64,000 bases of DNA from Candidatus Polarisedimenticolia bacterium (GTDB taxonomy: Bacteria; Acidobacteriota; Polarisedimenticolia; Gp22-AA2), in NCBI GenBank assembly GCA_036001465.1, contig DASYUH010000056.1, forward strand, positions 62,001 through 126,000, in the 5' to 3' direction. The translations under genes and the position numbers were made by a program. Shown here one piece after another: positions 36,254 to 50,609 of this stretch; positions within the stretch are counted from its first letter, which is position 1; each line of letters opens with the position of its first letter. The notes below the pieces were generated by a model. The model saw nothing but the letters and a program-made list of their open reading frames with translations, was not told where the DNA came from and made no database searches.

Positions 36254-37332
36254 CGGGATCCTCCCGCCGCCCCGGACCGCGCCGGGGGCCAGGTGGCCGC
36301 CGCCGGGACGAAGTCCTTCGCCGCCGGATCGAGGAGGACGCTCGCCCGGTGCCCGTAGGTGTGCCGGGCCAGTACCTCGGCCCGCCCCGCCCGCGCCACG
36401 GCCAGGCGGAGGGCGTCGTCTGCCAGCGCCTGCTCGACGCGGGCGCGCATCTCCTCGCCGCTCGAGAACACGGACAGATGCTCCCCGTCCCGGAACAGGC
36501 GCAGGACATCCCCCTGCCGGTTGACGACCTGGAAGGCGCCGCACGCCAGGATCTCGAAGACGCGGGTACTGGCCAGATCTCCCGACGCCTCGATCGGCCC
36601 GAACGCGCCGTAATGGATATTCAGGACGACCTTGGATCGCGCGTAGAGCCGGCGCCAGGCGGCGGGCCTCAGGGGGCCGCCCCGGATCATCGGGCGCACG
36701 ATGGGATCGTCCGCCGCCCGCTCCCAGCCGGGTCCCCAGACGCCGACGGACAGGCCGCGCAGGAACCTAAGGAGAACCTGGCGCTCCGGATAATGTGAGC
36801 CGATGAAGACGACCGGCGGCACCGTCTCGGGGCCCCGCCACGCGGGGGCCGCCTCCACCGCTTCGGGACGGTGCGCCTCCGGGTCGCAGCCGAACGGGAG
36901 CCAGAAGGAACGCGCGAGGCCGGCCTCGCGATGCCGGGCCGCGGCGAACGACGAGCCGAGAAAGAAGGAGTCGTACGCGTCGGCCATCCGGAGCCCCGCG
37001 TGGAATTCGGCCGGATAGTCCGAGAACCAGTTCACGCAGCGGACGCCTTGGTCGCGCAGCCGCTCGATGGTCCTCCGGGTCAGGACGGCCCCTTGATTGA
37101 CAATCAGGAGATCGGGCCGCACGCGGCGCGCCAGCCGAAGGAGGCGCGCGTTCAGCCGGTCCCGATCGAGCCGATCCAGGGTGGGCCAGCGCTGGCGCAG
37201 GCGGCCGGGCAGGAGGAAGTCGCGGTGATCGAACCGCGTCACCTCGTGACCGAGGCGCGACAGCGCGGCGGCGAGATAGTCCGGGAGCGCCTCGAAGCGG
37301 GGGTTGGAGGCCCCAGACAGGATGGTCTTCAT
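36250..37332 (-). CDS. CgeB-family glycosyltransferase (5)
   Basis: A 360-residue protein of the CgeB/DUF3880-like group of GT-B glycosyltransferases. Seen: LPDYLAAALSRLGHEV, DLLIVNQGAVLTRRTIERL, VNWFSDYP and the C-terminal STRVFEILACGAFQVVNRQ, which is the hallmark of the group (the RxFEIxACGA pattern), followed by a Glu-rich donor site. It likely adds a sugar to the repeat unit. The start overlaps the flippase stop. Confidence 0.8.
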   Translation of the reverse strand: MKTILSGASNPRFEALPDYLAAALSRLGHEVTRFDHRDFLLPGRLRQRWPTLDRLDRDRLNARLLRLARRVRPDLLIVNQGAVLTRRTIERLRDQGVRCVNWFSDYPAEFHAGLRMADAYDSFFLGSSFAAARHREAGLARSFWLPFGCDPEAHRPEAVEAAPAWRGPETVPPVVFIGSHYPERQVLLRFLRGLSVGVWGPGWERAADDPIVRPMIRGGPLRPAAWRRLYARSKVVLNIHYGAFGPIEASGDLASTRVFEILACGAFQVVNRQGDVLRLFRDGEHLSVFSSGEEMRARVEQALADDALRLAVARAGRAEVLARHTYGHRASVLLDPAAKDFVPAAATWPPARSGAAGGSR

Positions 37333-38972
37333 GTTCGCCCCGCCGCGCCGAGCGCCGCGTGCGGGCCCGCCGGCCCGGAGGCGCGCGGGCCGGCCGCGCG
37401 GCCGGCGCCGGGCAGCGCCCCGGCGAGCGCGGCGAGATCGTCGCGCGTGAACGCCCGCAGCCAGACCGCGAGCAGGAACGCGGCGGACACGAGGACGATC
37501 CCCTCTGGGAGGAGGCGCGTCAGCGCCGCGGTCCGCGTCGCGACCGGCAGGTGCGCTCCCAGCACGGCCAGGCGCAACGCACCGCCGGCGAGCAGGCCGC
37601 CGAGCCCGGCCAGGACGGGAGCGGGGACGGCGAGACCGGTGGGACGAACGAGACGTGGAGCGATCCGGAGCGCGCCCCGGGTGAGCAGGGCCGCGGCCAG
37701 CGCCGCCCCGAGAAGCGCCGCGGCGGCCACGCCGGGGGCCCCGTACGGGGCCGCCAGGCCCGCGGCCAGGCCGACGTGCACGAGCGACCCGCCGAGCGCG
37801 GCGCGGGCCTCGGGTCCCGGTCGGCCCATCCCCCGCAGGACGAGACGAAGCGGCGACACCATGAAGCTCAGGGCCGCGGCCGCGGCGAGCAATCGCGCCG
37901 CGGTGGCCGAGGCCTGCGGAATGTCGCGTCCCGTCCAGGCCCTGAGGACCGCCTCGGCGTCGAGCAGGACCAATGCGAGACAGGGGACGGCCAGAAGCGC
38001 CACGTAACGCGTGGCACGCTCGACGAGGGCGCGGACACTCTGATCGTCGCCGCGCGCATCGAGCCGCCCCGCCAGGGGCTGGATGACAGGCAGGGGCAGG
38101 GCCGCGATCTGCAGGATCCCGGCGATCTTCGCGCCCAGATCGTAGAGGCCCGCGGCGACGAATCCGGACGCTCCGGCCAGGAGAAGGCGGGGGAGGTGCG
38201 CGCCGAGGATCTCCGAGACGCGCACGATCTGGATGCGCATGCCAAACGACAGGAGCTCCCGCCATTCGGCTCTCCCTGCCGCGAACGGCACGGGCCTCAG
38301 ACCCGGCACGAGACGGTGCGCCGCCGTCGCTTCGAGGAACGACGCCAGCCCGGCGGCCAGAAGCGAGTTGAGCGCCATGCCACGAAGCCCGAAGCCGCCA
38401 GAGAGCGCCAGGGCGGCGCCGCACCCCTCCAGCAGAGAGACGGTCGATCCGATTCGTCCGAGCCGGTCCAGGCGCTGCGCCCCGGCGACCACGCCGCGGT
38501 AGCCCGAGAGGACCGTGCGCAGCACCACGGTGGCCAGCGTGCAGCCGAAGACGGTGGCGGCCTGCCCCGCGAGGGGTCCGCCGGGCACGACGAGCCCCAG
38601 GGCGCGCGGACCGCACACCAGGGCGATCGCCGACAGGAGGATCCCCAGGCCCAGGTGGAATCCCATTCCGGCCCCCAGAATCCGGTTGAGGCCGGCCGTG
38701 TCGGAGATCGCGATCGCCTTCGACGTGAACCGGCTGTAGGACGCCCCGACGCCGAGATCCAGGAGATGGGTCGTGTGGGCGAGCGACCAGGACGCCCCCC
38801 AGAGCCCGAGCCCCTCGATCCCGCAGGCGCGTACGACGAAGGGGGTCAGGACCAGCCCGACGAGCGCCGAGGTGGCCGACTCGATCCCGCCCCAGGCGAC
38901 CCCCCTGGCGGCCGCGGTCTTCTCGCCGTGCGCGTCGAGTCCGCGAGCGTCGGGACGGCCCGTGCGCTCCAT
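37329..38972 (-). CDS. Wzx-type oligosaccharide flippase
   Basis: A 547-residue polytopic protein of the MOP/polysaccharide-transport family with about 12-14 hydrophobic helices. The N-terminal region ARGVAWGGIESATSALVGLVLTPFVVRACG and the LLDLGVGASYSRFTSKAIA segment are typical of Wzx-like transporters. It would move the undecaprenyl-linked repeat unit across the inner membrane. The C-terminal Gly/Ala/Pro tail is low-complexity. Two bases separate it from the polymerase/ligase-like gene. Confidence 0.88.
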   Translation of the reverse strand: MERTGRPDARGLDAHGEKTAAARGVAWGGIESATSALVGLVLTPFVVRACGIEGLGLWGASWSLAHTTHLLDLGVGASYSRFTSKAIAISDTAGLNRILGAGMGFHLGLGILLSAIALVCGPRALGLVVPGGPLAGQAATVFGCTLATVVLRTVLSGYRGVVAGAQRLDRLGRIGSTVSLLEGCGAALALSGGFGLRGMALNSLLAAGLASFLEATAAHRLVPGLRPVPFAAGRAEWRELLSFGMRIQIVRVSEILGAHLPRLLLAGASGFVAAGLYDLGAKIAGILQIAALPLPVIQPLAGRLDARGDDQSVRALVERATRYVALLAVPCLALVLLDAEAVLRAWTGRDIPQASATAARLLAAAAALSFMVSPLRLVLRGMGRPGPEARAALGGSLVHVGLAAGLAAPYGAPGVAAAALLGAALAAALLTRGALRIAPRLVRPTGLAVPAPVLAGLGGLLAGGALRLAVLGAHLPVATRTAALTRLLPEGIVLVSAAFLLAVWLRAFTRDDLAALAGALPGAGRAAGPRASGPAGPHAALGAAGRT

Positions 38973-38974
38973 GC

Positions 38975-40354
38975 TCAGGCCTCCTGCGCCGGCGCCGAGG
39001 CGGCCACCACGAGACCGGTCAGGAGCCAGAACGGCTCCATCACCCGGATCAGCATGAAGGTGTTGGTGCCGACGGCATGCACCAGGAGACCCGCGAGTCC
39101 GGCGGTCATCCCGAGGCCGAGCCCGCGCACCAGGGGATCGGCCTGGCCCGTGGCGACCCGGTAGAACAGGGCCGCGGCGCTCCCGACGAGGAGGGCGAAG
39201 GCGGTGAAGCCGATGGCGCCGATCTCCACCAGGAGGCGGAAGTACTGGGCGTCGAGGAACCCGTATCCCGTGACGCCCCATCCCGCGACGGGGTGCTTCA
39301 CGAAGGCCCGCAGCGCCTCGCCCCACGACGTCAGCCTGGCCGAGGCGGAGGGATCGAGCTTCACGTGGCCGACCTGCACCGAGTCGTCCTCTCCCTGAAA
39401 GGTGTACAGGATGCGATCCTCGACGCTCGCGGGATGGACGAAGAACAGCAGGGCCGCCGCCAGGGACGCCGCCGCGAACAGCCGCCGGCGTGCCGGCGAC
39501 AGGGCCATGAGCGTCGCCAGGGAAGCGGACAGACCGATCCACGAGCTCCGCGACAGGGTCGCCAGAAGCGGCGGGATGACGAAGAGGGCGAGCGCCGCGC
39601 AGCCTCGCTTCCAGCGCCTCCACCCGTCCGGCAGGGTCAGGGCGATGGCGCAGGACACGCTGAACACCAGCACCAGGTACCCGCCGAGGGTGTTCGGTTC
39701 TCCTTCCCGGCCCTCGAACGGCGCCGACGGGCGGGTCCCCGAGGGGATCTGCCACCAGCCGTAGGCGGCGATGAGGGCCGCGGTGATCAGGGCGGCGGCG
39801 AGCAGGCGCCGGAATCGATCGCCGCCGCGCACGTAGTTCAGCGTGATGAAGAAGATGATGAAGTACTCGAGGTACTTGGCGACGAAGCACAGGCCGACCA
39901 TCGGCCGGACGCGGTCCGCCTCGATGCCGATCAGGGTGGAGAACAGGCAGCAGGCGGCGTAGGCGAAGATGCACGTGTTCAGAGTGTTGCGACGGATGGC
40001 TCCGAGGTCCTTGTGGATCGCCATCCGGGCGATCCAGGCGAAGCCGACCAGGAGGAGAAGCAGGTCCTCCGTTCGAAGCATGACCTCGCGGGTCCCTTCC
40101 AGGCCCGCGCCGCCGCCCCCCCCGATCGAGATTTCGGGGGAGAGCAGCATCGAGAGGATCAGGATGATCAGGCCCGCCTCGGCGCGCAGGATCGTGGCCA
40201 GGAACAGGATGGCCGCGACCGCGGCCACGATGGGAAGCTTCAGCGGCGCGCTGGTGATCCAGAGCGCCAGAAGGACGAGGGCCGTCGCGACCCCCGCGAG
40301 CAGGGCCGCACTCCGTGCCGGAAGGACACCGGCCGTCCCCGGAGAGGCGTTCAT
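38975..40354 (-). CDS. O-antigen polymerase/ligase-like membrane protein (Wzy/WaaL)
   Basis: A 459-residue protein with about 11-12 hydrophobic helices and the Wzy_C-type large loop. The loop includes LLATLSRSSWIGL and HPVAGWGVTGYGFLDAQYF, the latter matching the conserved H/P-x-x-G-x-G motif of O-antigen ligases. With flippase, autokinase and export protein alongside, it is most likely the Wzy polymerase of this pathway. Start ATG 40354, 6 bases after the autokinase stop. Confidence 0.85.
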   Translation of the reverse strand: MNASPGTAGVLPARSAALLAGVATALVLLALWITSAPLKLPIVAAVAAILFLATILRAEAGLIILILSMLLSPEISIGGGGGAGLEGTREVMLRTEDLLLLLVGFAWIARMAIHKDLGAIRRNTLNTCIFAYAACCLFSTLIGIEADRVRPMVGLCFVAKYLEYFIIFFITLNYVRGGDRFRRLLAAALITAALIAAYGWWQIPSGTRPSAPFEGREGEPNTLGGYLVLVFSVSCAIALTLPDGWRRWKRGCAALALFVIPPLLATLSRSSWIGLSASLATLMALSPARRRLFAAASLAAALLFFVHPASVEDRILYTFQGEDDSVQVGHVKLDPSASARLTSWGEALRAFVKHPVAGWGVTGYGFLDAQYFRLLVEIGAIGFTAFALLVGSAAALFYRVATGQADPLVRGLGLGMTAGLAGLLVHAVGTNTFMLIRVMEPFWLLTGLVVAASAPAQEA

Positions 40355-40360
40355 GGGAGG

Positions 40361-42547
40361 CTAGCGTTCGCCGCCGGCGGCTCGGATCCCGGACCGCGTC
40401 CCGGTGGCCTCCGTGACGGCTGGCACGGCGTCGACCGGCTTGCCCGCGTAACGATGGTAGATGTACTGCATCTCGGGGCTGTACGTGCTGACCTCCGCCT
40501 TCACGTCGTTCAGCACGATGCCGCGAATGGCGGCATGGACGTTGTCCAGGTGGGTCTTGGCGCGCTTCAGCACGGCACGACCGATCCGCCCGAGCTGGTA
40601 GACGAGCACGACCCCGTCGACGCGCGTCGACAGCACCACCGCGTCAGTGACCGGCAGGATCGGCGGCGCGTCGATCAGGATGACGTCGAAACGCGAGGCC
40701 ACCTCCACGATGAAATCGGTGAACAAAGGGGACGCCAGGAGCTCCGACGGATTGGGGGGCAGCGCCCCGGCGGTCAGGATGCGCAGGTTTTCGAGACCGG
40801 CCGAGGTCAGCATCGACTGCATGTCGACACGCCCGAGGAAGACCTCCGAGAACCGGTGCAGGACGTCGTCCAGCCGGTTCATGCCGAGCGCGACGTGCGT
40901 GAATCCCGGCTCCCGGGGCACCCCGAAGATGCGGTTGAGCGAGGGGCTTCTCAGGTCGCAGTCCCACACCAGCGTCTTCATCCCCATCTGGGCCATGGCG
41001 ACCCCCAGGTTCGCCACCGTCGTCGACTTCCCCTCGCTGGGAGACGCGGAGGTGAACAGGAAGGTGCGGCCCGCCTTGCCGATGCGCGAGAACTCGATGT
41101 TGGTCCGGAGCGATCGGAACGCTTCGGCCGCCGGAGACTGGGGAGCGAACTGGGTCACCAGAGCGCCCAGGCCCTCCAGGTTCGGATCGGACGCCAGCGT
41201 GGGGTTGCGCTGCAGGATCTCGCGGCGCGTGGAGTCCGGGTCGATGTGCGGGACGACGCCGATCACGGGCAGTCCCAGATACTCCTCGACGTCCTCGATG
41301 CTGCCGATGGAGGTGTCCAGGGTCTCGGCCAGGAAGGCGGCGACCAGCCCGAGGAGGAGACCGACAATAAGCCCCACCAGGGACCTCAGGATCCGGCCGG
41401 GGGCGTGGCGCGGGATGGCGGCCGTCGACTCCTCGACGACGCTGAGCTCCTGCACCTTGTCGGCCTCCTTGATCAGCGCCTCCTGGTGCTTGCGCATGAG
41501 CATCTGGTAGGCCTCGGTGTTGACCGCCACCTCGCGTTGCAGCTCCATCAGCGTCTGCTCGGCGCGGGGGAAGCGCGCCAGCTTCGAATCCAGGTCCCGC
41601 TTGCGGGCGCGCGCCAGGCCGAGCGCCGAGTGCGCCTCGCGCCTCAGGCGGGCGGTGAGCAGGTCGATCTGCTCCTTGATCGACTTCACCTCGGGGGCGT
41701 CCTCTTTCTGGAAGGACAGGATCTGGCGCTTCCGATCCTCGAGCTTCGCGAGCTCCAGCCTGAGGCCCGCGAGCCCCTCCTCGGGCAGGTCCACCAGGAG
41801 GAGCTCGGGGGACGAGCCGGGGTCGCCGGGATGGTCCAGGAGGTCGACGAGCTGCTGCATCGACGAGAGCCGGGCCTCGGTCCGGCCCGCTTCGTCCTGG
41901 AAGAACTGGATCTCCTTGGCGTCCGGCATGCTGGCGCCGACGTTGGCCTCCTTGAATCGTGTCAGGCGCTCCTCGGCCGCGCGCAGGCGGGCGCTCACTT
42001 CGGCGACCTGGCGCTCCACGAACTCGCGCGCCTCGATCGCCTGGCGATTGCGCTCGAAGGTGTGGCGGATGATGTATTCCTGCATGACGGCATTGACGAA
42101 CTGCACCGCCTCCTCGGCGGTCGGGCAGGCGCTCCGGATCTCGATCAGGCTCGTGTTGTCGATCGGCTTGGCGGTGTAGGTGGCGAGCATCGCGTCGAGA
42201 GCCGCCGCCATCTTGGGGTCGGCCAGGACGGTCTCGATCGTCGCGGACACCGGGATGCGGCCGAGCCGCTGCGCCGCCTTCAGGGCGACCGGCTTGCTGG
42301 TGATGATCTGCGCCTGGGTCGCGAGATCGTCCCCCGGGCTCCAGGTGAATGCCTCGAGGAACAGCCCCGTGACGCTGTCGGTCCGGCTCCACTTGACGCG
42401 GGCGTTCGCCTCGTACACCGGCCGGGCCCGCGGCGTCATGATCAGGGTCAGGGCCCCCAGCGCCAGGCAGCAGCCCGCCACGATCTTCCAGCGCCGGCGC
42501 AGGATGCGGAGGTAGTCCTGGAGGTTCAGGTCGTACTGGGCGGCCAT
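40361..42547 (-). CDS. Wzc-type chain-length regulator and tyrosine autokinase
   Basis: A 728-residue inner-membrane co-polymerase. The N-terminal Wzz domain follows a first TM (about 20-38), with a long periplasmic coiled coil (about 150-350). A second TM (about 385-408) leads to a cytosolic BY-kinase domain: Walker A SASPSEGKSTT, Walker A' VWDCDLRSP and Walker B VILIDAPP. The tail has several Tyr (YSPEMQYIYHRY), fewer than in enterobacterial Wzc but enough for autophosphorylation. It sets chain length and works with the export protein encoded 1 base upstream. A phosphatase partner is not obvious; the PHP protein is one candidate. Confidence 0.92.
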   Translation of the reverse strand: MAAQYDLNLQDYLRILRRRWKIVAGCCLALGALTLIMTPRARPVYEANARVKWSRTDSVTGLFLEAFTWSPGDDLATQAQIITSKPVALKAAQRLGRIPVSATIETVLADPKMAAALDAMLATYTAKPIDNTSLIEIRSACPTAEEAVQFVNAVMQEYIIRHTFERNRQAIEAREFVERQVAEVSARLRAAEERLTRFKEANVGASMPDAKEIQFFQDEAGRTEARLSSMQQLVDLLDHPGDPGSSPELLLVDLPEEGLAGLRLELAKLEDRKRQILSFQKEDAPEVKSIKEQIDLLTARLRREAHSALGLARARKRDLDSKLARFPRAEQTLMELQREVAVNTEAYQMLMRKHQEALIKEADKVQELSVVEESTAAIPRHAPGRILRSLVGLIVGLLLGLVAAFLAETLDTSIGSIEDVEEYLGLPVIGVVPHIDPDSTRREILQRNPTLASDPNLEGLGALVTQFAPQSPAAEAFRSLRTNIEFSRIGKAGRTFLFTSASPSEGKSTTVANLGVAMAQMGMKTLVWDCDLRSPSLNRIFGVPREPGFTHVALGMNRLDDVLHRFSEVFLGRVDMQSMLTSAGLENLRILTAGALPPNPSELLASPLFTDFIVEVASRFDVILIDAPPILPVTDAVVLSTRVDGVVLVYQLGRIGRAVLKRAKTHLDNVHAAIRGIVLNDVKAEVSTYSPEMQYIYHRYAGKPVDAVPAVTEATGTRSGIRAAGGER

Positions 42548-42548
42548 G

Positions 42549-44000
42549 TCAGTCCTTCTGGAAGTTGTCGATGATGTAGATCGACTCGATGATCCCGAGG
42601 GCGGGGGCGATGATCGACATGACCTCCTGGAGCGTCGCGATGGCGCGGCGGGGCACGAACACGATGTCGCCCGGAGCCAGCGGCACGTCCGCCTCGAGGT
42701 CCCCCTCCTTGAACATCTCCTTGAAGTTGGCGATCTTCATCTCCGCCTGGCCGCCGTCGCCGCGTTTCAGCACCACGACCCCCTTCATGTACCCCTTGGA
42801 GCTGAACCCTCCGGAGCGGGAGATCGCCTCGACCAGGCCCATCTTGTCGATGATGTTCACGACCCCCGGCTGGTTGACTTCCCCGAGGACGAACACCTTG
42901 CGGTTGCCCATCGAGAGGGACGGGACGAACACGAGGTCGCCGTGGCGCAGCCACGGATCGTCGCTCTCGTTTCCCTGAAAGACGGCGCGAAACAGGTTCA
43001 GCTCGCGGCGCGGCGACCCCGGCCGGATAACCTGGATGCGCATCACGTCCGCGTCCTGCGAGGGACCGCCGTGCGCCGAGAGGAACTCCACGAGGCGGGT
43101 CGGGCCTTCGAGGGCCCAGGAGCCCGGGCCGCTGTCGTTTCTGGCGGTGGTCTTCACCTCCCCCATCAGGCTCACCCGGTGGCCGGCGTACTTGGTGATC
43201 AGGAGCTCGACGTGCGTCTCCCTGTAGATCGCCTGGAAGCGCTTCTCGATGTCCTTCTTGAGGTCGACGACGGTGCGGCCGGCCACCGGCAGCGCGCCGA
43301 TTCCCATGACCGGAAGGAAGGCCTCTCCGTCGCTCTGCACGGTCAGCTTGAGCTCGTCGATCTTCTGTCCGTTCCAGATCCGGAGGCTCAGGACGTCGCC
43401 CGGTCCGAACAGGTAGTCGGCGGCGGGGGCGATGGTCTCCTCCTGCGCGACCCCGGTGGCGGGCGCCTCCTGCGCGGCCACGACACCGAACAGGCAGAGA
43501 ATGGCCAGGATGACGATGCCGGCGCCGCGCAGCATCCGGCGGGCGCGGCGGACCGCGGCGAGGCGCCGCGCCCCGGGCGAAGGAGCGAAGCAGGGATCGT
43601 CGATCGGCAACCGGCGTCCATTGCGCACGACCGCGGTCACGCGCCCGAGCAAGTCCTCCCGAAGCACCCCCGCGTCGGGTCCCCCCTCCGCGTCCCCCTG
43701 GAGACGGTAGACGCGACGGCCGGCGCGCATCTCCACGAGGACCAGCCGGTGCACCACGAGGAGATCCGGAGAGGAGCGCGCCAGGACGATCTGCCCCGGT
43801 CGAGGCAGGCCGAGGAACGGGGAGACCACCGCCACATCTCCCTGGACGAGGGCCGGTCGCATGCTCGCGCCCCTGACCGGAACCAGCGCCGCGTGCCCCC
43901 CCAGGAGCAGCGCATCGAGGACCGGTGCGGCCTCGCGCTCGACCTCGGGCAGGGACCCTCCGGGCGTTGCGCCGGGGCCGCGGCCGCGTGCGGCGGTCAT
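42549..44000 (-). CDS. SipW-like peptidase domain fused to polysaccharide export protein
   Basis: A 483-residue protein with an unusual layout. Residues about 30-135 match a SipW/ER-type S26 signal-peptidase fold: nucleophile Ser46 in RGASMRPAL, QGD, His84 in LLVVHRLVL (His replaces the usual Lys in this class), Asp103 in QGDAEGGPD and EDLLGRV. A membrane helix (about 159-177, ILAILCLFGVVAAQ) follows, then a Wza-type export domain (from about 188: FGPGDVLSLRIWNG) and SLBB domains (VSLMGEV; VFVLGEVNQPGVVNI). Met156 with the helix would make an ordinary signal peptide, so an export protein starting at 43535 is possible. The frame is nevertheless open from ATG 44000, which overlaps the previous stop (ATGA). 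As drawn, the peptidase domain is cytosolic. Confidence 0.8.
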   Translation of the reverse strand: MTAARGRGPGATPGGSLPEVEREAAPVLDALLLGGHAALVPVRGASMRPALVQGDVAVVSPFLGLPRPGQIVLARSSPDLLVVHRLVLVEMRAGRRVYRLQGDAEGGPDAGVLREDLLGRVTAVVRNGRRLPIDDPCFAPSPGARRLAAVRRARRMLRGAGIVILAILCLFGVVAAQEAPATGVAQEETIAPAADYLFGPGDVLSLRIWNGQKIDELKLTVQSDGEAFLPVMGIGALPVAGRTVVDLKKDIEKRFQAIYRETHVELLITKYAGHRVSLMGEVKTTARNDSGPGSWALEGPTRLVEFLSAHGGPSQDADVMRIQVIRPGSPRRELNLFRAVFQGNESDDPWLRHGDLVFVPSLSMGNRKVFVLGEVNQPGVVNIIDKMGLVEAISRSGGFSSKGYMKGVVVLKRGDGGQAEMKIANFKEMFKEGDLEADVPLAPGDIVFVPRRAIATLQEVMSIIAPALGIIESIYIIDNFQKD

Positions 44001-46333
44001 ACGGCGACCTGCGCGGGGGGCGCGCCGACGCCCTTCACCCGGTGCCGGATGTGGAGGAACGGAGCGCGCGCCAGGTCGATGACCCGTCTCTCGCCCGGGT
44101 CGTGCCCGCCGGCCGAGGCGGTGATCTCGACGCGCGGCCGGAAGTGGTTGTCTTCGTTCAGAGAGACCACGCACGCCAGGTCGCCGCTGCTGAGCTCCAC
44201 CAGGGCGCCGATGGGGAAGATTGGGATCGCCTTCAGGAGGGCGCGGAACAGGGCGGGAGAGAATCGCCGGCCGTGCTGCTCCATGACCAGCGAGGTCACG
44301 TCGTGAAGGTCGGACTCCGGACGATCGTCCGATCCGTGCGTGTGCATCTCGAGGAGGCTCGCGAGGGCGACGACCTGGGCGGCCGTGTCGGCGCGGGAGC
44401 GCTCCGAAGGGGTCGGCAGGTCGAACCGCAGGAGACCGTGCACCTCGCGGATCGACTCCAGGAGCCCCGCGGCGTCCGCCCCGAGGACCTTCAGGATCGG
44501 CCCCGGATTCTCGCGCTCCCCCTTCGGGTCGAGCGCCTCCTCCGAGCCGATGGACGGAAGTTCGGCATCCGGATCGATCCCGGCCCGCATCAGGCCGGCA
44601 TCATGGAGAAGCGCCAGGAGGCCCACCCGAGGGTCCGCCTCGAGTCCGAGCGCGCACCAGATGCGGGCCGCGATGAAGGCGACGTTGACCGAGTGGGTGG
44701 CCAGGCGGAAGCCGCCGACGGCGGCCAGCAGGTCCGGCAGGGGAGTCGTCGATCGGCCGCTCGCGACGATCGAGCCCGCCAGTTCCGTCAGTCCTTTCGC
44801 GTCGACCGGTCTCTGGACGTGCGCATCCCGGAGGATCTTCGACAGGGTCTGCGCGCCGTCCACGGCGGCCGCCGGGCGCGGCCCGGAGACGACCGCGGGC
44901 CCCTTCAGGAGTGCGACCGCGGGGGCGCTTCCCGAAGCGGCGGGGGAGCCCTCCGCGACGACCGGTGCCACTCCCGCGTGCACCATGATCTCGCGCAGGC
45001 TCCGCATGCCCCGCTGCGCGCCCGGCAGGGTGGCCACGTCGTCCACGCAGGCGTGACCCTGGATCGCCTTCCGCCAGCCCTCCTCGCGCAGGCGCGGAAG
45101 GGAACCGGGGCCGGCTTCGGGGTCGACCAGCTCAAAGACCCCCGTCAGCCCGGAAGCGCCCGTGCCGGCGCAGTCGTTGCATCCCTGTGCCCGGGCGACG
45201 GACAGGCCACCCCGCCCCTCCATCGATTCGACGTCGCGGCGATGGAAACCGAAACGGCGCGCCTTCTCGGCCGACAGCATCGACCAGCCGATGCAGCCGC
45301 GGCAGACCGTCCGGACGAGAGTCTGCGCCAGGACCGCCACCGGAACGGCGGGCGCCGACCCGGCTTCGAGCGCCCGACCGACGCTTCTCGACAGGGACTC
45401 CGGGTCGGCCGCGGGGGCCCCGGCGAGCACCAGGCAGCCGCTCGCGGCGAGGCGCGCCGCCAGGACCAGGTCGGCGGCCCCCTCGAGGCTCTCGACCAGC
45501 ACGAACTCGGGCGCGGCCTGCAGCAGGCTGTCGGGGAAAGGCCAATCGGACAGGGTCCCCGCCAGCCAGGGGAGCTCGGGCCGCGCCTGGCGGGCTCGCG
45601 GGCCGATGCGCCCGCCGGCGTGGCCGCGGGACACCAGCGTCTGGGCCATGAGGTCGAGGGTCGTGGTCCTCCCAGTCGCCGGCCCCCCGGAAACGAGCAG
45701 GATGCCGGCGCGACGATCCAGGCTATCGAGGAGAAGCTCGAGGACCGCCGGCGAGAACCCGATGTCGGCGAGCGTGGCGGGAGACGCCGATTCGACGACG
45801 CCCGTCACCCGCACGCGGTACTCCTGCGGTCGCGGAGCCGGTCGCACGCTGAGGAGCACCCGCCGGGCCCGCCCTCCGGCGGTCTTCACGACGCCTCGCG
45901 GCACCTGCTGGAAGACCGCCGCCAGGAAACCGAGGGCATCCTTGGGGGCGACCGGAAGGGGCTGCTCCTCGCCCGAGGAGGTGAGGAGGGTCGCGCGCAG
46001 CCCGTCGCGCCCCGGCTGCAGGCTGAGCTCGACGTGCTCGCCCCCCATGAGCCGGGACAGCGCCGGCGCCAGGGCGTCCGGCCGCGTCACCACCCGCGGC
46101 CAGGTCCCGGCCTCGGAGGCGGGGAGGACTTCCGTTCCGCGCACCTCCTCGTCGCTCACCGGGATCGCCACGACCCCGACCTGCATGCCCCAGTAGCGCC
46201 GGGGTACACGCAGGCTCTCGATGCCGCGGGGCGTCGCCACGAAGACGACCTCCTGGCGATCGGCGAGCAGGACGGGCAGGGCGAGTGGCGCCTTACCGCG
46301 ACCGGTGTCCGGTGCGTCGTCCGCCTTCACCAT
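43997..46333 (-). CDS. GspE/PilB-like pseudo-ATPase fused to HD domain
   Basis: A 778-residue protein not matching any standard architecture. Residues about 90-460 follow the GspE/PilB plan: IGFSPAVLELLLDSLDRRAG, a Walker A region GGPATGRTTT with Arg222 where the essential Lys should be, a weakened Walker B (VLVESLEG), LAQTLVRTVCRGC and the GspE zinc site (Cys344, Cys347, Cys385, Cys388), then TGVFELVDPE. ATP hydrolysis is therefore doubtful. Residues about 535-760 resemble an HD-GYP-type domain (His547; His577-Asp578 in LALLHDAGLM) with the closing PIGALVELSSGDLACVV, but the GYP motif is not seen. Likely a regulator; some GspE/PilB N-domains bind c-di-GMP, though this one was not shown to. 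It overlaps the response regulator by 41 bases. Confidence 0.75.
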   Translation of the reverse strand: MVKADDAPDTGRGKAPLALPVLLADRQEVVFVATPRGIESLRVPRRYWGMQVGVVAIPVSDEEVRGTEVLPASEAGTWPRVVTRPDALAPALSRLMGGEHVELSLQPGRDGLRATLLTSSGEEQPLPVAPKDALGFLAAVFQQVPRGVVKTAGGRARRVLLSVRPAPRPQEYRVRVTGVVESASPATLADIGFSPAVLELLLDSLDRRAGILLVSGGPATGRTTTLDLMAQTLVSRGHAGGRIGPRARQARPELPWLAGTLSDWPFPDSLLQAAPEFVLVESLEGAADLVLAARLAASGCLVLAGAPAADPESLSRSVGRALEAGSAPAVPVAVLAQTLVRTVCRGCIGWSMLSAEKARRFGFHRRDVESMEGRGGLSVARAQGCNDCAGTGASGLTGVFELVDPEAGPGSLPRLREEGWRKAIQGHACVDDVATLPGAQRGMRSLREIMVHAGVAPVVAEGSPAASGSAPAVALLKGPAVVSGPRPAAAVDGAQTLSKILRDAHVQRPVDAKGLTELAGSIVASGRSTTPLPDLLAAVGGFRLATHSVNVAFIAARIWCALGLEADPRVGLLALLHDAGLMRAGIDPDAELPSIGSEEALDPKGERENPGPILKVLGADAAGLLESIREVHGLLRFDLPTPSERSRADTAAQVVALASLLEMHTHGSDDRPESDLHDVTSLVMEQHGRRFSPALFRALLKAIPIFPIGALVELSSGDLACVVSLNEDNHFRPRVEITASAGGHDPGERRVIDLARAPFLHIRHRVKGVGAPPAQVAV

Positions 46334-46730
46334 CCGTCTCCCTGGCCGCAGACTCGCCGGCCTCCGGTTCGAGTGTCACGATCTTCGCGAGCAGCGTCCG
46401 CTCCAGGTAGCGGAAATCGAGGGGCTTCTGGATGAAATCGTAGGCTCCGAGATCCAGGGCCTGCAGGGCCATGTCGTTGTCGGCGTGGCCGCTGATCATG
46501 ATGACCGCCGCCTGGGGGATCTCCTGGCGCAGCTTCTTCAGGGTCTCGATCCCGTTCATGCCGGGCATGGCGATGTCGAGGAGGATGATCTGGGGCCTGA
46601 GCGTCCGGACCATCATGAGCGCCTCGCGACCGTTCTCGGCGCCGGTCGCCGCATACCCGTGGTCGGAGAGAAACTCGATCAGGACATCGCGGATTGCCGC
46701 CTCGTCGTCCACCACCAGGATCTGGTTCAT
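46293..46730 (-). CDS. response regulator (receiver plus short tail)
   Basis: A 145-residue protein. The receiver has VVDDE, phospho-Asp in IILLDIAMPGMNG, Ser in VIMISGHA and Lys in IQKPLD, all intact. A basic tail of about 25 residues follows with no DNA-binding domain. It may regulate the neighbouring pseudo-ATPase/HD protein by contact. No cognate histidine kinase lies in the operon. ATG 46730 overlaps the kinase-like gene's stop. Confidence 0.88.
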   Translation of the reverse strand: MNQILVVDDEAAIRDVLIEFLSDHGYAATGAENGREALMMVRTLRPQIILLDIAMPGMNGIETLKKLRQEIPQAAVIMISGHADNDMALQALDLGAYDFIQKPLDFRYLERTLLAKIVTLEPEAGESAARETDGEGGRRTGHRSR

Positions 46731-47689
46731 TCGTCGTCCCTCATCCGGACAGACCGCGCCTCGTCCGCCCGGCCCCGTGCGGGCAGGTCGCCGCCCTGGA
46801 GGGATTCCAGGACGCAGTCCACCGCGGTTCGGTCCGGGAGAAACTGCAGGCGCCTCACCGGGACTCTGCCCGTGAGGTCGGCCAGGAATTTCACTGCGAA
46901 CTCGAGACCCTGCTGATCCCACATCGCCGGGAAGGCGCGCACCATCATCTGGGCGACGGCCGTCGAGGGGGTCATCTCCTGGATCCGGTTGCGCGGAGCC
47001 TGGTCCAGGATGAACACCGCATCGAGCCTCGCCGAGGACGGGGTCTCCCAACCGTCCTCTCCATGCCAGGGCGTGCCGTAGATGCGATAGCCGTCCCCTT
47101 CGGACCGGATGACGATGCGGTCGTCCGAGAGGATGGTCACGCCGCCGCGCTCTTTCCACAGGCGGGCGGTGGTGCTCTTGCCGGCCCCCGAGGTCCCGAG
47201 GAACAGCAGACCGCGCCCGCCGATGACCAGACCGCAGGCGTGCACCAGAACGCCGCGCCCGCGCGACAGCCGGGCCAGGAAGACGACCTCGTCGAACGGA
47301 TAGACGAAAGGGTGGAGCTCGTTCTGGTTGAGGATCGGGCCCCCGACGAGGGTCTCTCCCTCCCCCCGGGTGTATTCACGGTCGAATTCGACCGCCAGAT
47401 ACGGCTCCCGTCCGAAAATGGCCGAACGGAAGGTCAGCAGGCGCTGCTCGCCGACCTCCTCCAGCCGCCAGACCGATCCGGTTTCGAACAGGGTGCGGCC
47501 GGGCTGCCGTGCGGCCCTGCCGGAAGCCGGCCCGAGCAGCACCCGGGCGCAGTCCTCCACGGACGCCTCGGCCAGGAACGGCACGTGCGCCGGCTCGGCG
47601 ACCAGGCGGATCGAAGGATCGGCCGTGCGCACCTCGAGGCCGATGCGGGCCACCTCCAGGACCAGCGGGCGCACGCAGTCAGCTGGCAT
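46727..47689 (-). CDS. HPr-kinase-like P-loop protein
   Basis: A 320-residue protein of the HPr Ser kinase/PEP-carboxykinase-like fold. VLVHACGLVI (His150) precedes Walker A GTSGAGKST (about 165-173), with the catalytic Asp pair in TILSDDRIVI. It lacks the N-terminal domain of true HprK. Homologues beside peptide precursors, known best from paeninodin-type lasso clusters, phosphorylate the C-terminal Ser of the precursor. The precursor-like peptide encoded immediately upstream ends in Ser. Its ATG lies 11 bases inside that gene. An HPr-directed role is unlikely because no PTS gene is near. Confidence 0.8.
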   Translation of the reverse strand: MPADCVRPLVLEVARIGLEVRTADPSIRLVAEPAHVPFLAEASVEDCARVLLGPASGRAARQPGRTLFETGSVWRLEEVGEQRLLTFRSAIFGREPYLAVEFDREYTRGEGETLVGGPILNQNELHPFVYPFDEVVFLARLSRGRGVLVHACGLVIGGRGLLFLGTSGAGKSTTARLWKERGGVTILSDDRIVIRSEGDGYRIYGTPWHGEDGWETPSSARLDAVFILDQAPRNRIQEMTPSTAVAQMMVRAFPAMWDQQGLEFAVKFLADLTGRVPVRRLQFLPDRTAVDCVLESLQGGDLPARGRADEARSVRMRDDE

Positions 47690-47873
47690 TGTGCGAGCAC
47701 AGCGCTGGATTGGCCGAGCACTTGTTGATCGGGCCGCCGGGGCCGGCCGTGACGTTGCTCTTGCAGGACGCGAGGACCGCCTCGTCCGGCACCAGCCGGA
47801 CGCGGCTCAATCTCGGTGTCTCGTAAGGCCTGCGGGCCGCGTGGCCCCGCCGGGAATCATTGTGGTTCGTCAT
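47679..47873 (-). CDS. candidate RiPP precursor peptide
   Basis: A 64-residue peptide. The leader-like half holds Y17-x-x-P20-x-L22 (PYETPRLSRVRL), a motif recognised by PqqD-type domains in lasso and some radical SAM pathways. VPDEAVLASCKSN follows, then a Gly/Pro/Asn-rich core-like half with three Cys (37, 52, 59) and a C-terminal Ser64. No signal peptide and no double-Gly cut site. It is translated from a strong Shine-Dalgarno and overlaps the radical SAM gene upstream and the kinase gene downstream. The residues that would be modified are not known; Cys thioethers, a phospho-Ser64 or a different outcome are all possible. Confidence 0.75.
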   Translation of the reverse strand: MTNHNDSRRGHAARRPYETPRLSRVRLVPDEAVLASCKSNVTAGPGGPINKCSANPALCSHNAS

Positions 47874-49174
47874 GCGACCTCCTCAAGAGAGCCGGCTGTT
47901 GGTGTCGTGGGACGTTCAATCTGAAGCAGTCGTTTCGCCGTCTTCGTGCCGGTGGCGGCCTTGGTGCATCCGCCCGCGGCGCAGCCCCCTGACGCGCAGC
48001 CGCCGGCGGCCGATCCGATCGCCGAGGCACGAGGCAGGATGGCCCCCTCGGGCGTCCAGCCGGAGCGCACCCGGTCGGCGTGCTCGCGGTATCGCGCCGC
48101 GGTCTCGGGGCGGCCGATCTCCTCCTCGAGAAGGGCGGCGCGCCGGTGCGTGACCTCGCAGTAGTAGGGGATCCAGCCGTCGGGGCTGCCGGTCTCGAGC
48201 GTGGCGGTGGCCGGGCAGCGATCGCACATGGCCCGCAGCTCGCACGAGGCGCAGACGTTGGCCGCTCCCGCGGGGCGGCGGCGGATGTCCCCGACCGGGC
48301 CGTACCACCCCTCGCGGAAGCTCCCGTTCCTGAGGTCGTACCCGTTCAGCGGGAGCGCCTCGCACGACAGGAGCGTTCCCTGCGGGGTGACGTGGAAGCT
48401 GTTGATCCCCGCCCCGCAGGACATCAGGTAGGCGGACGGCTGCGTCGGCTTCACGAACTTCTCGTAGAAGGCCTTCCAGTCCTTAAGCCGACCCGGGTCG
48501 GAGGCGTCGTACCCGACGACCGTCTCGGGCGCCGATCGAACGCTGGTCGGGGCGAGGGACCCGTCCAGGCGCCCGTGCACCATCGCGTCGTACCGGAAGC
48601 GCACGCCGAGCGACTCGCTCCAGGCGGCCATCTGCTCGATCTCGCCGGCGAGGGGCTCCATCGCCACCGCCTTCAGGCTCAGCGGGACCCCACGCTCGAG
48701 CAGGAGCTCGATGGCCCGGCGCACCCGGGTGAAGCGTCCCGGGAACCCGGTGGTCTTGAGATAGGTCTCGTCCGACATGCCGTACAGGGTGAACTCGATG
48801 CCGAACGGCGGGTACTCCGCGAGCAGGTCGGCGACCCGCTCGTCCACGAGCGTGCCGTTGCTGAACACCGTCAGGAGAAACCCGAGCCGCTTGGCGTGCA
48901 GGTAGATCTCCGGGAAATCGCTGCGGCACAGGACCTCGCCGCCGGTGAGCAGCATCCACAGGCAGCCCTCGTCCGCCGCCTCGCTCAGGATTCGCTTGAT
49001 CTCACCGGTGCTCATCTCGTTGCGCCCGGAGTAGTCCGGGATGTAGCAATGGACGCAGCGCAGGTTGCACTTGAAGGTGATCTCCATCGAGCCGGACAGG
49101 GGCACGCGCTCCGCCGCCCCGGCCCGCATCAGCCGGGACCCCAGCTCGGCGTAGGACAGCTCGGGAAGCGTCAT
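47870..49174 (-). CDS. radical SAM/SPASM peptide-maturase-like enzyme
   Basis: A 434-residue radical SAM enzyme. The SAM cluster motif is CNLRCVHCY (Cys36, Cys40, Cys43), followed by LTGGEVL. A C-terminal SPASM domain with auxiliary cluster cysteines (SCGAGINSF; LLSCEAL; CASCELRAMCDRC; YYCEV) follows. This architecture is typical of peptide-modifying enzymes (sactipeptide, ranthipeptide, PqqE and related types) and of some heme/anaerobic factors. After the SPASM domain comes an unusual tail: GGCASGGCAAGGC, with Cys393, Cys398 and Cys403 at regular spacing of five. Flanked by a PqqD-like protein and the precursor-like peptide with overlapping starts and stops, it is most likely the peptide's maturase. 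Confidence 0.88.
   Translation of the reverse strand: MTLPELSYAELGSRLMRAGAAERVPLSGSMEITFKCNLRCVHCYIPDYSGRNEMSTGEIKRILSEAADEGCLWMLLTGGEVLCRSDFPEIYLHAKRLGFLLTVFSNGTLVDERVADLLAEYPPFGIEFTLYGMSDETYLKTTGFPGRFTRVRRAIELLLERGVPLSLKAVAMEPLAGEIEQMAAWSESLGVRFRYDAMVHGRLDGSLAPTSVRSAPETVVGYDASDPGRLKDWKAFYEKFVKPTQPSAYLMSCGAGINSFHVTPQGTLLSCEALPLNGYDLRNGSFREGWYGPVGDIRRRPAGAANVCASCELRAMCDRCPATATLETGSPDGWIPYYCEVTHRRAALLEEEIGRPETAARYREHADRVRSGWTPEGAILPRASAIGSAAGGCASGGCAAGGCTKAATGTKTAKRLLQIERPTTPTAGSLEEVA
47878..47884 (-). promoter_or_regulatory. strong ribosome binding site of the precursor gene
   Basis: GAGGAGG on the minus strand, 4 bases before the ATG at 47873 and inside the end of the radical SAM gene. It is one of the strongest Shine-Dalgarno sites in the operon, as expected for a peptide needed in excess over its enzymes. 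Confidence 0.7.
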
Positions 49175-49488
49175 GGTCCCTCGGTCGCTATGGCGGGGCG
49201 CGCCAGGCGCGCCTCGACGAGTCCGCGTAGGAACTCGATCACCTCGTCGTAGGCGCGCTCCTCCTCCACGTCGTACTCCAAGCTGACCAGGCGGGCGATG
49301 GTGCGCGCGTCGCGACGCCCGTCGAGAAGGCGGAAGATGTGGCTGCCGATCTCGTTGGCGGTGAAGATGAAATCCATTTCCGCCGCCCCCTTGAACACCG
49401 GCACCAGCAGGTACTCGCCTGCCACGCGCCTCGCCACGACGTCGGGGGAGGGCACGAGCGGCAGGGTGACCATCGTATCGAGGTTCAT
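49171..49488 (-). CDS. PqqD-like peptide-recognition protein
   Basis: A 105-residue winged-helix protein of the PqqD family (RiPP recognition element). VARRVAGEYLLVPV forms the first strands, FTANEIGSHIFRLLDG the typical N-x-x-G/A-xx-I-W/F helix, and RTIARLVSLEYDVEEERAYDEVIEFLRGLVEARL the C-terminal helices. Such domains bind the leader of a precursor and hold it to the radical SAM enzyme. Strong Shine-Dalgarno (AAGGAGG, 5 bases before ATG 49488). Overlaps the nucleotidyltransferase stop and the radical SAM start by 4 bases each. Confidence 0.88.
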   Translation of the reverse strand: MNLDTMVTLPLVPSPDVVARRVAGEYLLVPVFKGAAEMDFIFTANEIGSHIFRLLDGRRDARTIARLVSLEYDVEEERAYDEVIEFLRGLVEARLARPAIATEGP

Positions 49489-50609
49489 CGCGCCCTCCTT
49501 CTCGCGGCGGCCTGGCGGGTCCCGCTCACGGCAAGATCGAAGACCCTGCGCGGCAGCGCCTTGGCGCGTCTCCAGCCGCGCGGTTTCACCTCTCCCGCGG
49601 GCCAGAAGGCGTCGACCAGAAAGCGCAGCCGGGTCCCCAGACCGCGCGTCGCGAGCATCATGAGAATCTCGCCTGACCAGGGGAGCGGGCGCAGCGCCAT
49701 GGCGCGGGCCATCAGGTGGCGCTCGAGGGCTCCATCCGCCTCCGTCGCCGGTCGGTCGATGGCGCGCACGCCGACACCCAGGATGCCCGCGGACTGCAGG
49801 GCCCAGCCGAGGAGCTTCGAGGCCCCGCAGGACTCGGAGCGCCGTCCCAGGACGCTCCAGTCGAGCAGGCCGCGTTTGTGGAACACGAAGTGGGACAGGT
49901 CGGCGATCCGGACGAGGCGGTCGAAGGAGTGCTTGATCAGGTGGATAGCCAGGAGGAGCAGGCTGTCCTCCGGCTGGAGAAGGAGCGCGGGCGCCCCCGC
50001 GACCCGGCCGCGCGAAGCCCGCGCGAAGAGGTCCGGCACCGAGACGGGAAAGGCCGCCCGGCGCGTGGGCCGACGGCGGGCGCCGAGCGGGTCCGTGTGC
50101 AGGTCGAGAATCACTCCGCCGCGGCGGAACAGAGTGCGGGACTGCTCCGCGAACCGGAGCCTTTCGAGGGCACGGCGCGCCCCGGGCTCGTCCTCCGGCA
50201 GGACCAGCAGATCATGATCCTCGAAAGGTCGGAGCGACGGGTCGCCGTAGACCGTCTCCACCGTCTCGACGCCGCGCATCACCATGACCGGGATGCGGCT
50301 GCGATCGAGCTCTTCGAGGACCTCCGCCAGAGCCAGCGCCTGGGAGAGGGTCGCGGCCGTGAACCGCTGTGCGCGCCTCTTGAGCGCCGAGCGCAGCCAC
50401 GGATCGATGTTCCGCTGCGGCAAGCGGGAAACCGCCCGGTAGGCCAGGCCGTCGATCCGGTGGAAGGCGATTCGATCGAGCAGGGCGGCCAGGGCGGCCG
50501 GCTCGAGTGTCCGTAGCGATTCGCCGAGCCGGTCATCCTGGGGGATGGGGGACGCCAGCAGACCGAGCACGCCGATTGCGGGGGAGATCGTCCCTTCCAC
50601 GACTCGCAT
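49485..50609 (-). CDS. NTP_transf_5 family nucleotidyltransferase
   Basis: A 374-residue protein of the nucleotidyltransferase family often found in lasso-peptide and other peptide clusters. Signature: IPVMVMRGVETVETVYGDPSLRPFEDHDLLVL, the family's pol-beta-type metal site with paired Asp, and VILDLHTDPL; a helical C-terminus (LLLLAIHLIKHSFDRLVRIADL) follows. The frame is open to 50795, but a promoter lies at 50710-50737, so ATG 50609 is preferred; an in-frame ATG at 50729 sits upstream of the expected transcript start. First gene of the 24-gene operon. Its substrate could be the phosphorylated peptide or a sugar; this is not determined. Confidence 0.75.
   Translation of the reverse strand: MRVVEGTISPAIGVLGLLASPIPQDDRLGESLRTLEPAALAALLDRIAFHRIDGLAYRAVSRLPQRNIDPWLRSALKRRAQRFTAATLSQALALAEVLEELDRSRIPVMVMRGVETVETVYGDPSLRPFEDHDLLVLPEDEPGARRALERLRFAEQSRTLFRRGGVILDLHTDPLGARRRPTRRAAFPVSVPDLFARASRGRVAGAPALLLQPEDSLLLLAIHLIKHSFDRLVRIADLSHFVFHKRGLLDWSVLGRRSESCGASKLLGWALQSAGILGVGVRAIDRPATEADGALERHLMARAMALRPLPWSGEILMMLATRGLGTRLRFLVDAFWPAGEVKPRGWRRAKALPRRVFDLAVSGTRQAAARRRAR

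Follow-up and report, generated by a model that had tools for sequence, protein, structure and literature searches.

A putative radical SAM-containing RiPP cassette, related to LPP and paeninodin, at the head of an exopolysaccharide operon in Acidobacteriota

A five-gene module ahead of a polysaccharide operon

What do five overlapping genes at the head of an exopolysaccharide operon make, and does their product take part in the polysaccharide pathway? We examined this question in a 64,000-nucleotide stretch of a soil Candidatus Polarisedimenticolia bacterium genome (Acidobacteriota; 189-kb contig DASYUH010000056.1, positions 62,001 to 126,000), hereafter the window, in whose numbering all positions are given. 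A sequence-only reading had proposed that the genes encode, in order of transcription, a nucleotidyltransferase, a PqqD-like recognition protein, a radical SAM/SPASM enzyme, a short peptide and an HPr-kinase-like protein, which together would make a ribosomally synthesized and post-translationally modified peptide (RiPP). We judge it probable, at roughly 0.7, that the locus is a RiPP cassette, a radical SAM-containing relative of the LPP and paeninodin systems, that heads a Wza/Wzc/Wzy exopolysaccharide operon and works through the steps proposed below.

All five genes were found in the named order on the minus strand, with NTP_transf_5, PqqD and Radical_SAM passing the Pfam cut-offs and the HprK assignment supported by the predicted fold. 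The NTP_transf_5 nucleotidyltransferase (PF14907; 49485..50609; Pfam 1.2e-34) is syntenic in six relatives; its open reading frame (ORF) is open up to 50795 and homology begins only at about residues 54-63, and therefore the start at 50609 that had been chosen earlier is plausible. It is followed by a PqqD-like RiPP recognition element (RRE; LppB/B1-like; 49171..49488; Pfam PqqD 3e-12), a radical SAM/SPASM peptide maturase (47870..49174; Pfam Radical_SAM 7e-24), the 64 aa precursor peptide (47679..47873) and an HprK-like kinase (46727..47689). The PqqD, radical SAM and peptide genes each begin within the stop of the gene before, through 4-nt ATGA overlaps, and the peptide and kinase genes overlap by 11 nt, the kinase and response regulator genes by 4 nt. 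The strong Shine-Dalgarno sequence reported for the peptide gene is present, as AGGAGGT within TTGAGGAGGTCGC-ATG. These gene overlaps suggest that the module and the polysaccharide genes form one transcript; scans for promoters and terminators over 46-51 kb came up empty, which speaks neither for nor against a single transcript.

The precursor peptide and its conservation

The predicted precursor has a YETPRL leader motif, a glutamate (E31) at the register of LPP E-2, three core cysteines (C37, C52, C59) and a C-terminal serine, S64. Because it is kept in 7/7 genomes of the family with pairwise dN/dS of 0.01-0.70 (48 aligned codons), we regard the ORF as a real gene under purifying selection. 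Using a hidden Markov model (HMM) of the peptide, we found homologues in 43/396 Acidobacteriota genomes, with the majority consensus YxKPxxxxVxLxPEEAVLxxCKxxxxxGPxxxxCxxxxxCxxxGS. Among 40 complete homologues the C-terminal residue is Ser in 38 and Thr in two, and exactly three cysteines occur in 33, so that the residues singled out in the sequence-only reading (C37, C52, C59 and S64) are conserved upon alignment and the terminal Ser64 is a likely kinase target. The leader Tyr and Glu are 14 residues apart in 34/40, the spacing of LPP Y-16 to E-2, and this equal register suggests cleavage just after E31-A32. The peptide is thus conserved in related operons, and throughout the phylum the PqqD/radical SAM pair keeps it as partner, in support of the RiPP logic first proposed for the set.

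Synteny within and beyond the family

Initial module matches were obtained by tblastn with the window proteins. The near relatives of this genome in the named collection are gp22 Acidobacteria MAGs. Six more genomes, from the same genus or family, are collinear with the window from NTP_transf_5 through Wzc, contig ends aside; the response regulator gave no match in one otherwise collinear family block (L026). Outside the family, 33 distant loci were found by the peptide HMM alone, with their neighbours unused, and within 5 kb of the peptide they contain radical SAM (30), HprK (29), PqqD (26), SpI/S24 (20) and NTP_transf_5 (8) genes, counts that are not independent, the adjacency models having been built partly from the loci scanned and the sequences being related. 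With gene positions taken as random in the Poisson estimates, PF14907 lies no further than 10 kb from the peptide at 9/30 loci outside the family (0.29 expected), which bears out the association of the nucleotidyltransferase with the module, and a Poly_export gene does so at 3/30 (expected 0.22, P ~0.0015). The tie to polysaccharide genes is strong within this family and recurrent, not universal, beyond it.

Two distant loci illustrate the arrangement. In L086, the PqqD, radical SAM, peptide, HprK, SpI and NTP_transf_5 genes lie in a single same-strand run, and in the Clostridia locus L018 we observe in a row PqqD, radical SAM, a peptide ending in GS, HprK, SpI, an MsbA-like ABC exporter and a polysaccharide dehydratase.

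A probable leader peptidase fused to Wza

The sequence-only reading had recognised no protease. We find that an SpI/S24-type peptidase is a member of the module, here fused to the exporter. The fusion ORF (42549-44000, minus strand) starts with about 170 residues of a SpI/S24-S26-type serine peptidase domain (43491..44000; Peptidase_S24 3.6e-5), continues through one hydrophobic segment and ends in a Wza-like export protein (Poly_export and SLBB by Pfam; 42549..43490). Across 15 homologues, among them standalone module peptidases and one Clostridia member, its S46, H84 and D103 do not vary, and they match the S/H/D triad mutated in LppS; this SipW-like Ser/His/Asp domain is probably the leader peptidase. 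The peptidase stands alone in distant clusters, whereas in seven family genomes it is fused to the Wza N-terminus, with a stop-free junction in 7/7; in G005 the Wza part is frame-shifted beyond the junction. The S24 domain is absent from Wza homologues of the sister family, where a search at E 1e-60 gave no module radical SAM gene, and from Wza paralogues in three module-bearing genomes. An AlphaFold model of the fusion (six sequences) reached a pLDDT of 49 and was not used. As gene-fusion evidence, the joined ORF suggests that in this family the peptide is matured in concert with polysaccharide export.

The radical SAM enzyme and the kinase

The radical SAM protein carries CxxxCxxC at residues 36/40/43 and SPASM cysteines at 253, 271, 308, 311, 317, 320 and 339, the latter invariant across 26 homologues. 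Its closest solved relatives by sequence are SkfB and PqqE, and its top named match is the mycofactocin maturase, at 79 bits against a cut-off of 265. The C-terminal tail is rich in Gly and Cys (GGCASGGCAAGGC; window 47870-48010), in variable form common to relatives, and is possibly an extra metal site. The kinase has a Walker A motif (GTSGAGKST), an SDDR motif and an invariant H150, with Walker A and DDR conserved in the alignment; it matches NCBIfam HprK_rel_B (1e-9) and ScmC (8e-7), both under cut-off. Its AlphaFold2 model (pLDDT 90.6) resembles PEPCK and HPr kinases with a Foldseek probability of 1.00, and with its P-loop the protein is, by its modelled structure, of the HPr kinase-like fold.

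Comparison with known systems

Among known systems, LPP and paeninodin come closest. LPP (linear polyphosphorylated peptides; LppA/K/B/S/D/N; Popov et al. 2026) comprises an RRE, an HprK-like kinase, an NTP transferase, an SpI leader peptidase (S29/H68/D93) and an MsbA-like exporter; its clusters often lie in capsule loci, the authors offered speculation only on its role, and it was reported as Bacillota-restricted, a radical SAM enzyme being unmentioned (PMC13381572). The window holds the LPP gene set (RRE, HprK-like, NTP transferase and SpI) in one cluster, the RRE being discrete and the SipW-like peptidase having the S/H/D triad; a YxxP leader whose E-2 stands in equal register, location in polysaccharide loci and the lack of a macrolactam cyclase are likewise shared. 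It differs in its tri-Cys core, in a C-terminal Ser instead of LPP core S3, in its occurrence in Acidobacteriota and in the fusion of SpI to Wza; no MsbA-like exporter was identified among the operon genes scanned. Furthermore, the LPP core set has no radical SAM enzyme, whereas a radical SAM/SPASM gene stands beside the peptide in 30/33 distant loci, and of the LPP leader YxxPxVLxHQxIxFETxxS with phosphorylated S3, the HQxIxFET part was not seen in the homologues while YxxP and E-2 are kept (34/40). Its motif and its radical SAM gene thus place the module outside LPP proper.

In paeninodin precursors the C-terminal Ser is phosphorylated by HprK homologues, and in pseudomycoidin a nucleotidyltransferase puts a hexose onto that phosphate (PMC8498205). 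The module shares with these systems the HprK and NTP_transf_5 genes, proposed to act at the same C-terminal Ser, the RRE and a [Y/W]xxPxL leader; neither a macrolactam cyclase nor a B2 protease adjoins it, and it has a radical SAM gene instead. The contrast with lasso clusters drawn in the sequence-only reading stands, with the closest relative being the LPP family (PMC13381572) and not lasso clusters alone. By analogy, the module would join processing of the LPP type and C-terminal tailoring of the paeninodin type to a radical SAM maturase, working like both; new relative to them are the radical SAM enzyme, the tri-Cys core, an acceptor at the C-terminus and not at core S3, and the occurrence outside Bacillota.

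Two further groups share parts of the set. The SynChlorMet cassette (NCBIfam ScmC/D/E/F) also joins HprK-like, PqqD-like and radical SAM/SPASM proteins, but the module scores far under the ScmC/D/E/F cut-offs. Literature searches found no papers on this cassette and nothing relevant on the combination of radical SAM, HPr kinase and PqqD. Like the sactipeptides and ranthipeptides (SkfB, AlbA, PapB), the module pairs a radical SAM/SPASM maturase with a Cys-bearing precursor, with the difference that the thioether is here a prediction from sequence; those systems are not known to include a kinase, an NTP transferase or SpI.

Proposed pathway and the evidence against it

While the genes, their synteny, conservation, leader register, catalytic residues and fusion can be read from the DNA, the chemical steps, the cut site and the polysaccharide role are what we infer from them. 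The PqqD/RRE protein would bind the YxxPxL leader, and the radical SAM/SPASM enzyme would modify the tri-Cys core, probably through Cys thioether links. The HprK-like kinase would then phosphorylate the C-terminal Ser64, and NTP_transf_5 would add a sugar or nucleotidyl group to the phosphate. The gene set and the terminal Ser/Thr are consistent with the earlier proposal of a radical SAM-modified and phosphorylated or nucleotidylated peptide, and the chemistry itself stays at the level of inference. The SpI-type serine peptidase would cut off the leader at the exporter, by analogy with LPP probably just after E31-A32, and the peptidase-Wza fusion probably couples processing to the polysaccharide export machine. 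The peptide might then act in or on the polysaccharide as an anchor, cap, decoration or signal. A bolder version, which we hold to be improbable, makes the peptide a ribosomal anchor, cap or primer joined covalently to the exopolysaccharide via a phospho-sugar bond at the C-terminal Ser, with the kinase and NTP_transf_5 building the link and the Wza-fused peptidase freeing the leader upon channel entry; if true, a RiPP pathway would here be assembling a peptide-polysaccharide conjugate.

Several observations weigh against the proposed pathway. The NCBIfam lasso and PQQ PqqD models match the PqqD-like protein at about 1e-5, under their cut-offs, and the Hpr_kinase_C match of the kinase is likewise under the gathering cut-off (21.5 vs 33.3 bits). 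The position of LPP S3 is Ser in only 1/40 homologues, so that the kinase site is argued from the conserved C-terminus and from the paeninodin analogy, and distant Clostridia peptides do not all end in Ser. The product and activity of the radical SAM branch are predicted, and the lack of independence among the 33 loci lessens what their counts can say. Finally, 27/30 distant loci lack a Wza gene within 10 kb, and the polysaccharide role may therefore be particular to some lineages. Because the association elsewhere is recurrent and not general (3/30), we propose that role for this family only; the polysaccharide function suggested in the sequence-only reading thus keeps its strong linkage within the family and does not go with the module everywhere.

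Alternative explanations

The same 27 loci speak for a possible though doubtful account in which the product is exported as a free peptide with a bioactive or signalling function, sactipeptide- or ranthipeptide-like and also phosphorylated, whose place in the operon reflects co-regulation or chance and which has no part in the polymer. An MsbA-like exporter adjoins the module in Clostridia L018 and belongs to LPP clusters (PMC13381572), as such a peptide would suggest; against it, the block is kept family-wide with the leader peptidase fused to Wza, no ABC exporter was identified among the window operon genes scanned, and capsule loci also house LPP clusters (PMC13381572). It is quite unlikely that the HprK-like protein and the response regulator make up a circuit regulating the operon, with the peptide as regulatory substrate and not a natural product: the response regulator and T2SSE-HD genes do lie directly downstream and are co-conserved in the family, but in distant loci the response regulator is outside the module, whereas radical SAM, PqqD and SpI belong to it.

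The nearest named and solved relatives of the radical SAM protein (mycofactocin maturase, SkfB and PqqE) would fit a precursor of a small redox cofactor, like pyrroloquinoline quinone (PQQ) or mycofactocin. We consider this very unlikely, as the mycofactocin score is far under its cut-off, the block has no dedicated oxidoreductase, and the conserved core Cys, terminal Ser, kinase and leader peptidase indicate that the peptide is retained. Hardly credible is a phospho-lasso peptide cluster, which would share the YxxPxL leader, RRE, HprK and NTP_transf_5 with paeninodin and pseudomycoidin and to which an Asn-synthase gene about 23 kb off in the same polysaccharide region, and Transglut_core3 genes near three distant peptides, could be ascribed. 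Lasso peptides have an acidic ring-closing residue near the core start; the family here has three Cys and no conserved acidic residue there. A conserved radical SAM gene takes the place of the cyclase, and membership was rejected upon PF00733 and PF13471 searches: no Asn_synthase match adjoins the module in the genomes checked, and this genome contains no Transglut_core3 gene, in agreement with the earlier statement that no lasso B2 protease is present.

The preferred reading, that of an LPP/paeninodin relative tied to polysaccharide export in this family, bears on the biological role of HprK/NTP-transferase-modified RiPPs such as paeninodin and LPP, and the peptidase-exporter fusion evidence makes a polysaccharide function directly testable. 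The module would extend the LPP/paeninodin logic to a second phylum and add a radical SAM enzyme, and the peptide family offers enzymology a set of conserved substrates with an almost invariant C-terminal Ser.

The downstream operon and further loci

After HprK, the operon continues on the minus strand with the response regulator, T2SSE+HD, S24::Wza, Wzc, Wzy, Wzx and glycosyltransferase genes. The CheY-like response regulator (46293..46730; Response_reg 2e-32) is co-conserved in most family genomes, as is the T2SSE-like ATPase and HD domain protein (43997..46333; T2SSE 3e-11, HD weak) within the family. The latter gene lies between the module and Wza, and its HD part also matches near the module in L068 and L086. 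Beyond the fusion follow a Wzc-like chain-length determinant and tyrosine kinase (40361..42547; Wzz, GNVR, AAA_31), a Wzy/O-antigen ligase-like protein (38975..40354; Wzy_C 4e-13) and a Wzx-like flippase region (37329..38960, exact start not fixed; Polysacc_synt_3 8e-7).

The same genome contains a second trio of HprK-like, PqqD-like and radical SAM genes (L020:8500-10850; G000:C56 ~12.5-14.9 kb), followed by a gene that by eye resembles a C25-type protease; no YxxP peptide was recognised nearby and the trio was set aside. A plasmid search returned distant PqqE-like matches only. Near three distant peptides, Transglut_core3 (lasso B2-like) genes lie 1-2.5 kb away with no adjacent cyclase (G384:C152:20106-20441, G199:C111:185844-186140 and G112:C22:10649-10903), and are perhaps an alternative leader protease. 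Orphan peptide homologues with no module genes within 5 kb occur in L087, L088 and L094, which suggests maturation in trans. Additionally, the Clostridia loci L096/L103, L097, L099, L100 and L101 combine HprK-like kinases, mostly together with radical SAM or PqqD, with diverse short YxxP peptides, several of them ending in residues other than Ser.

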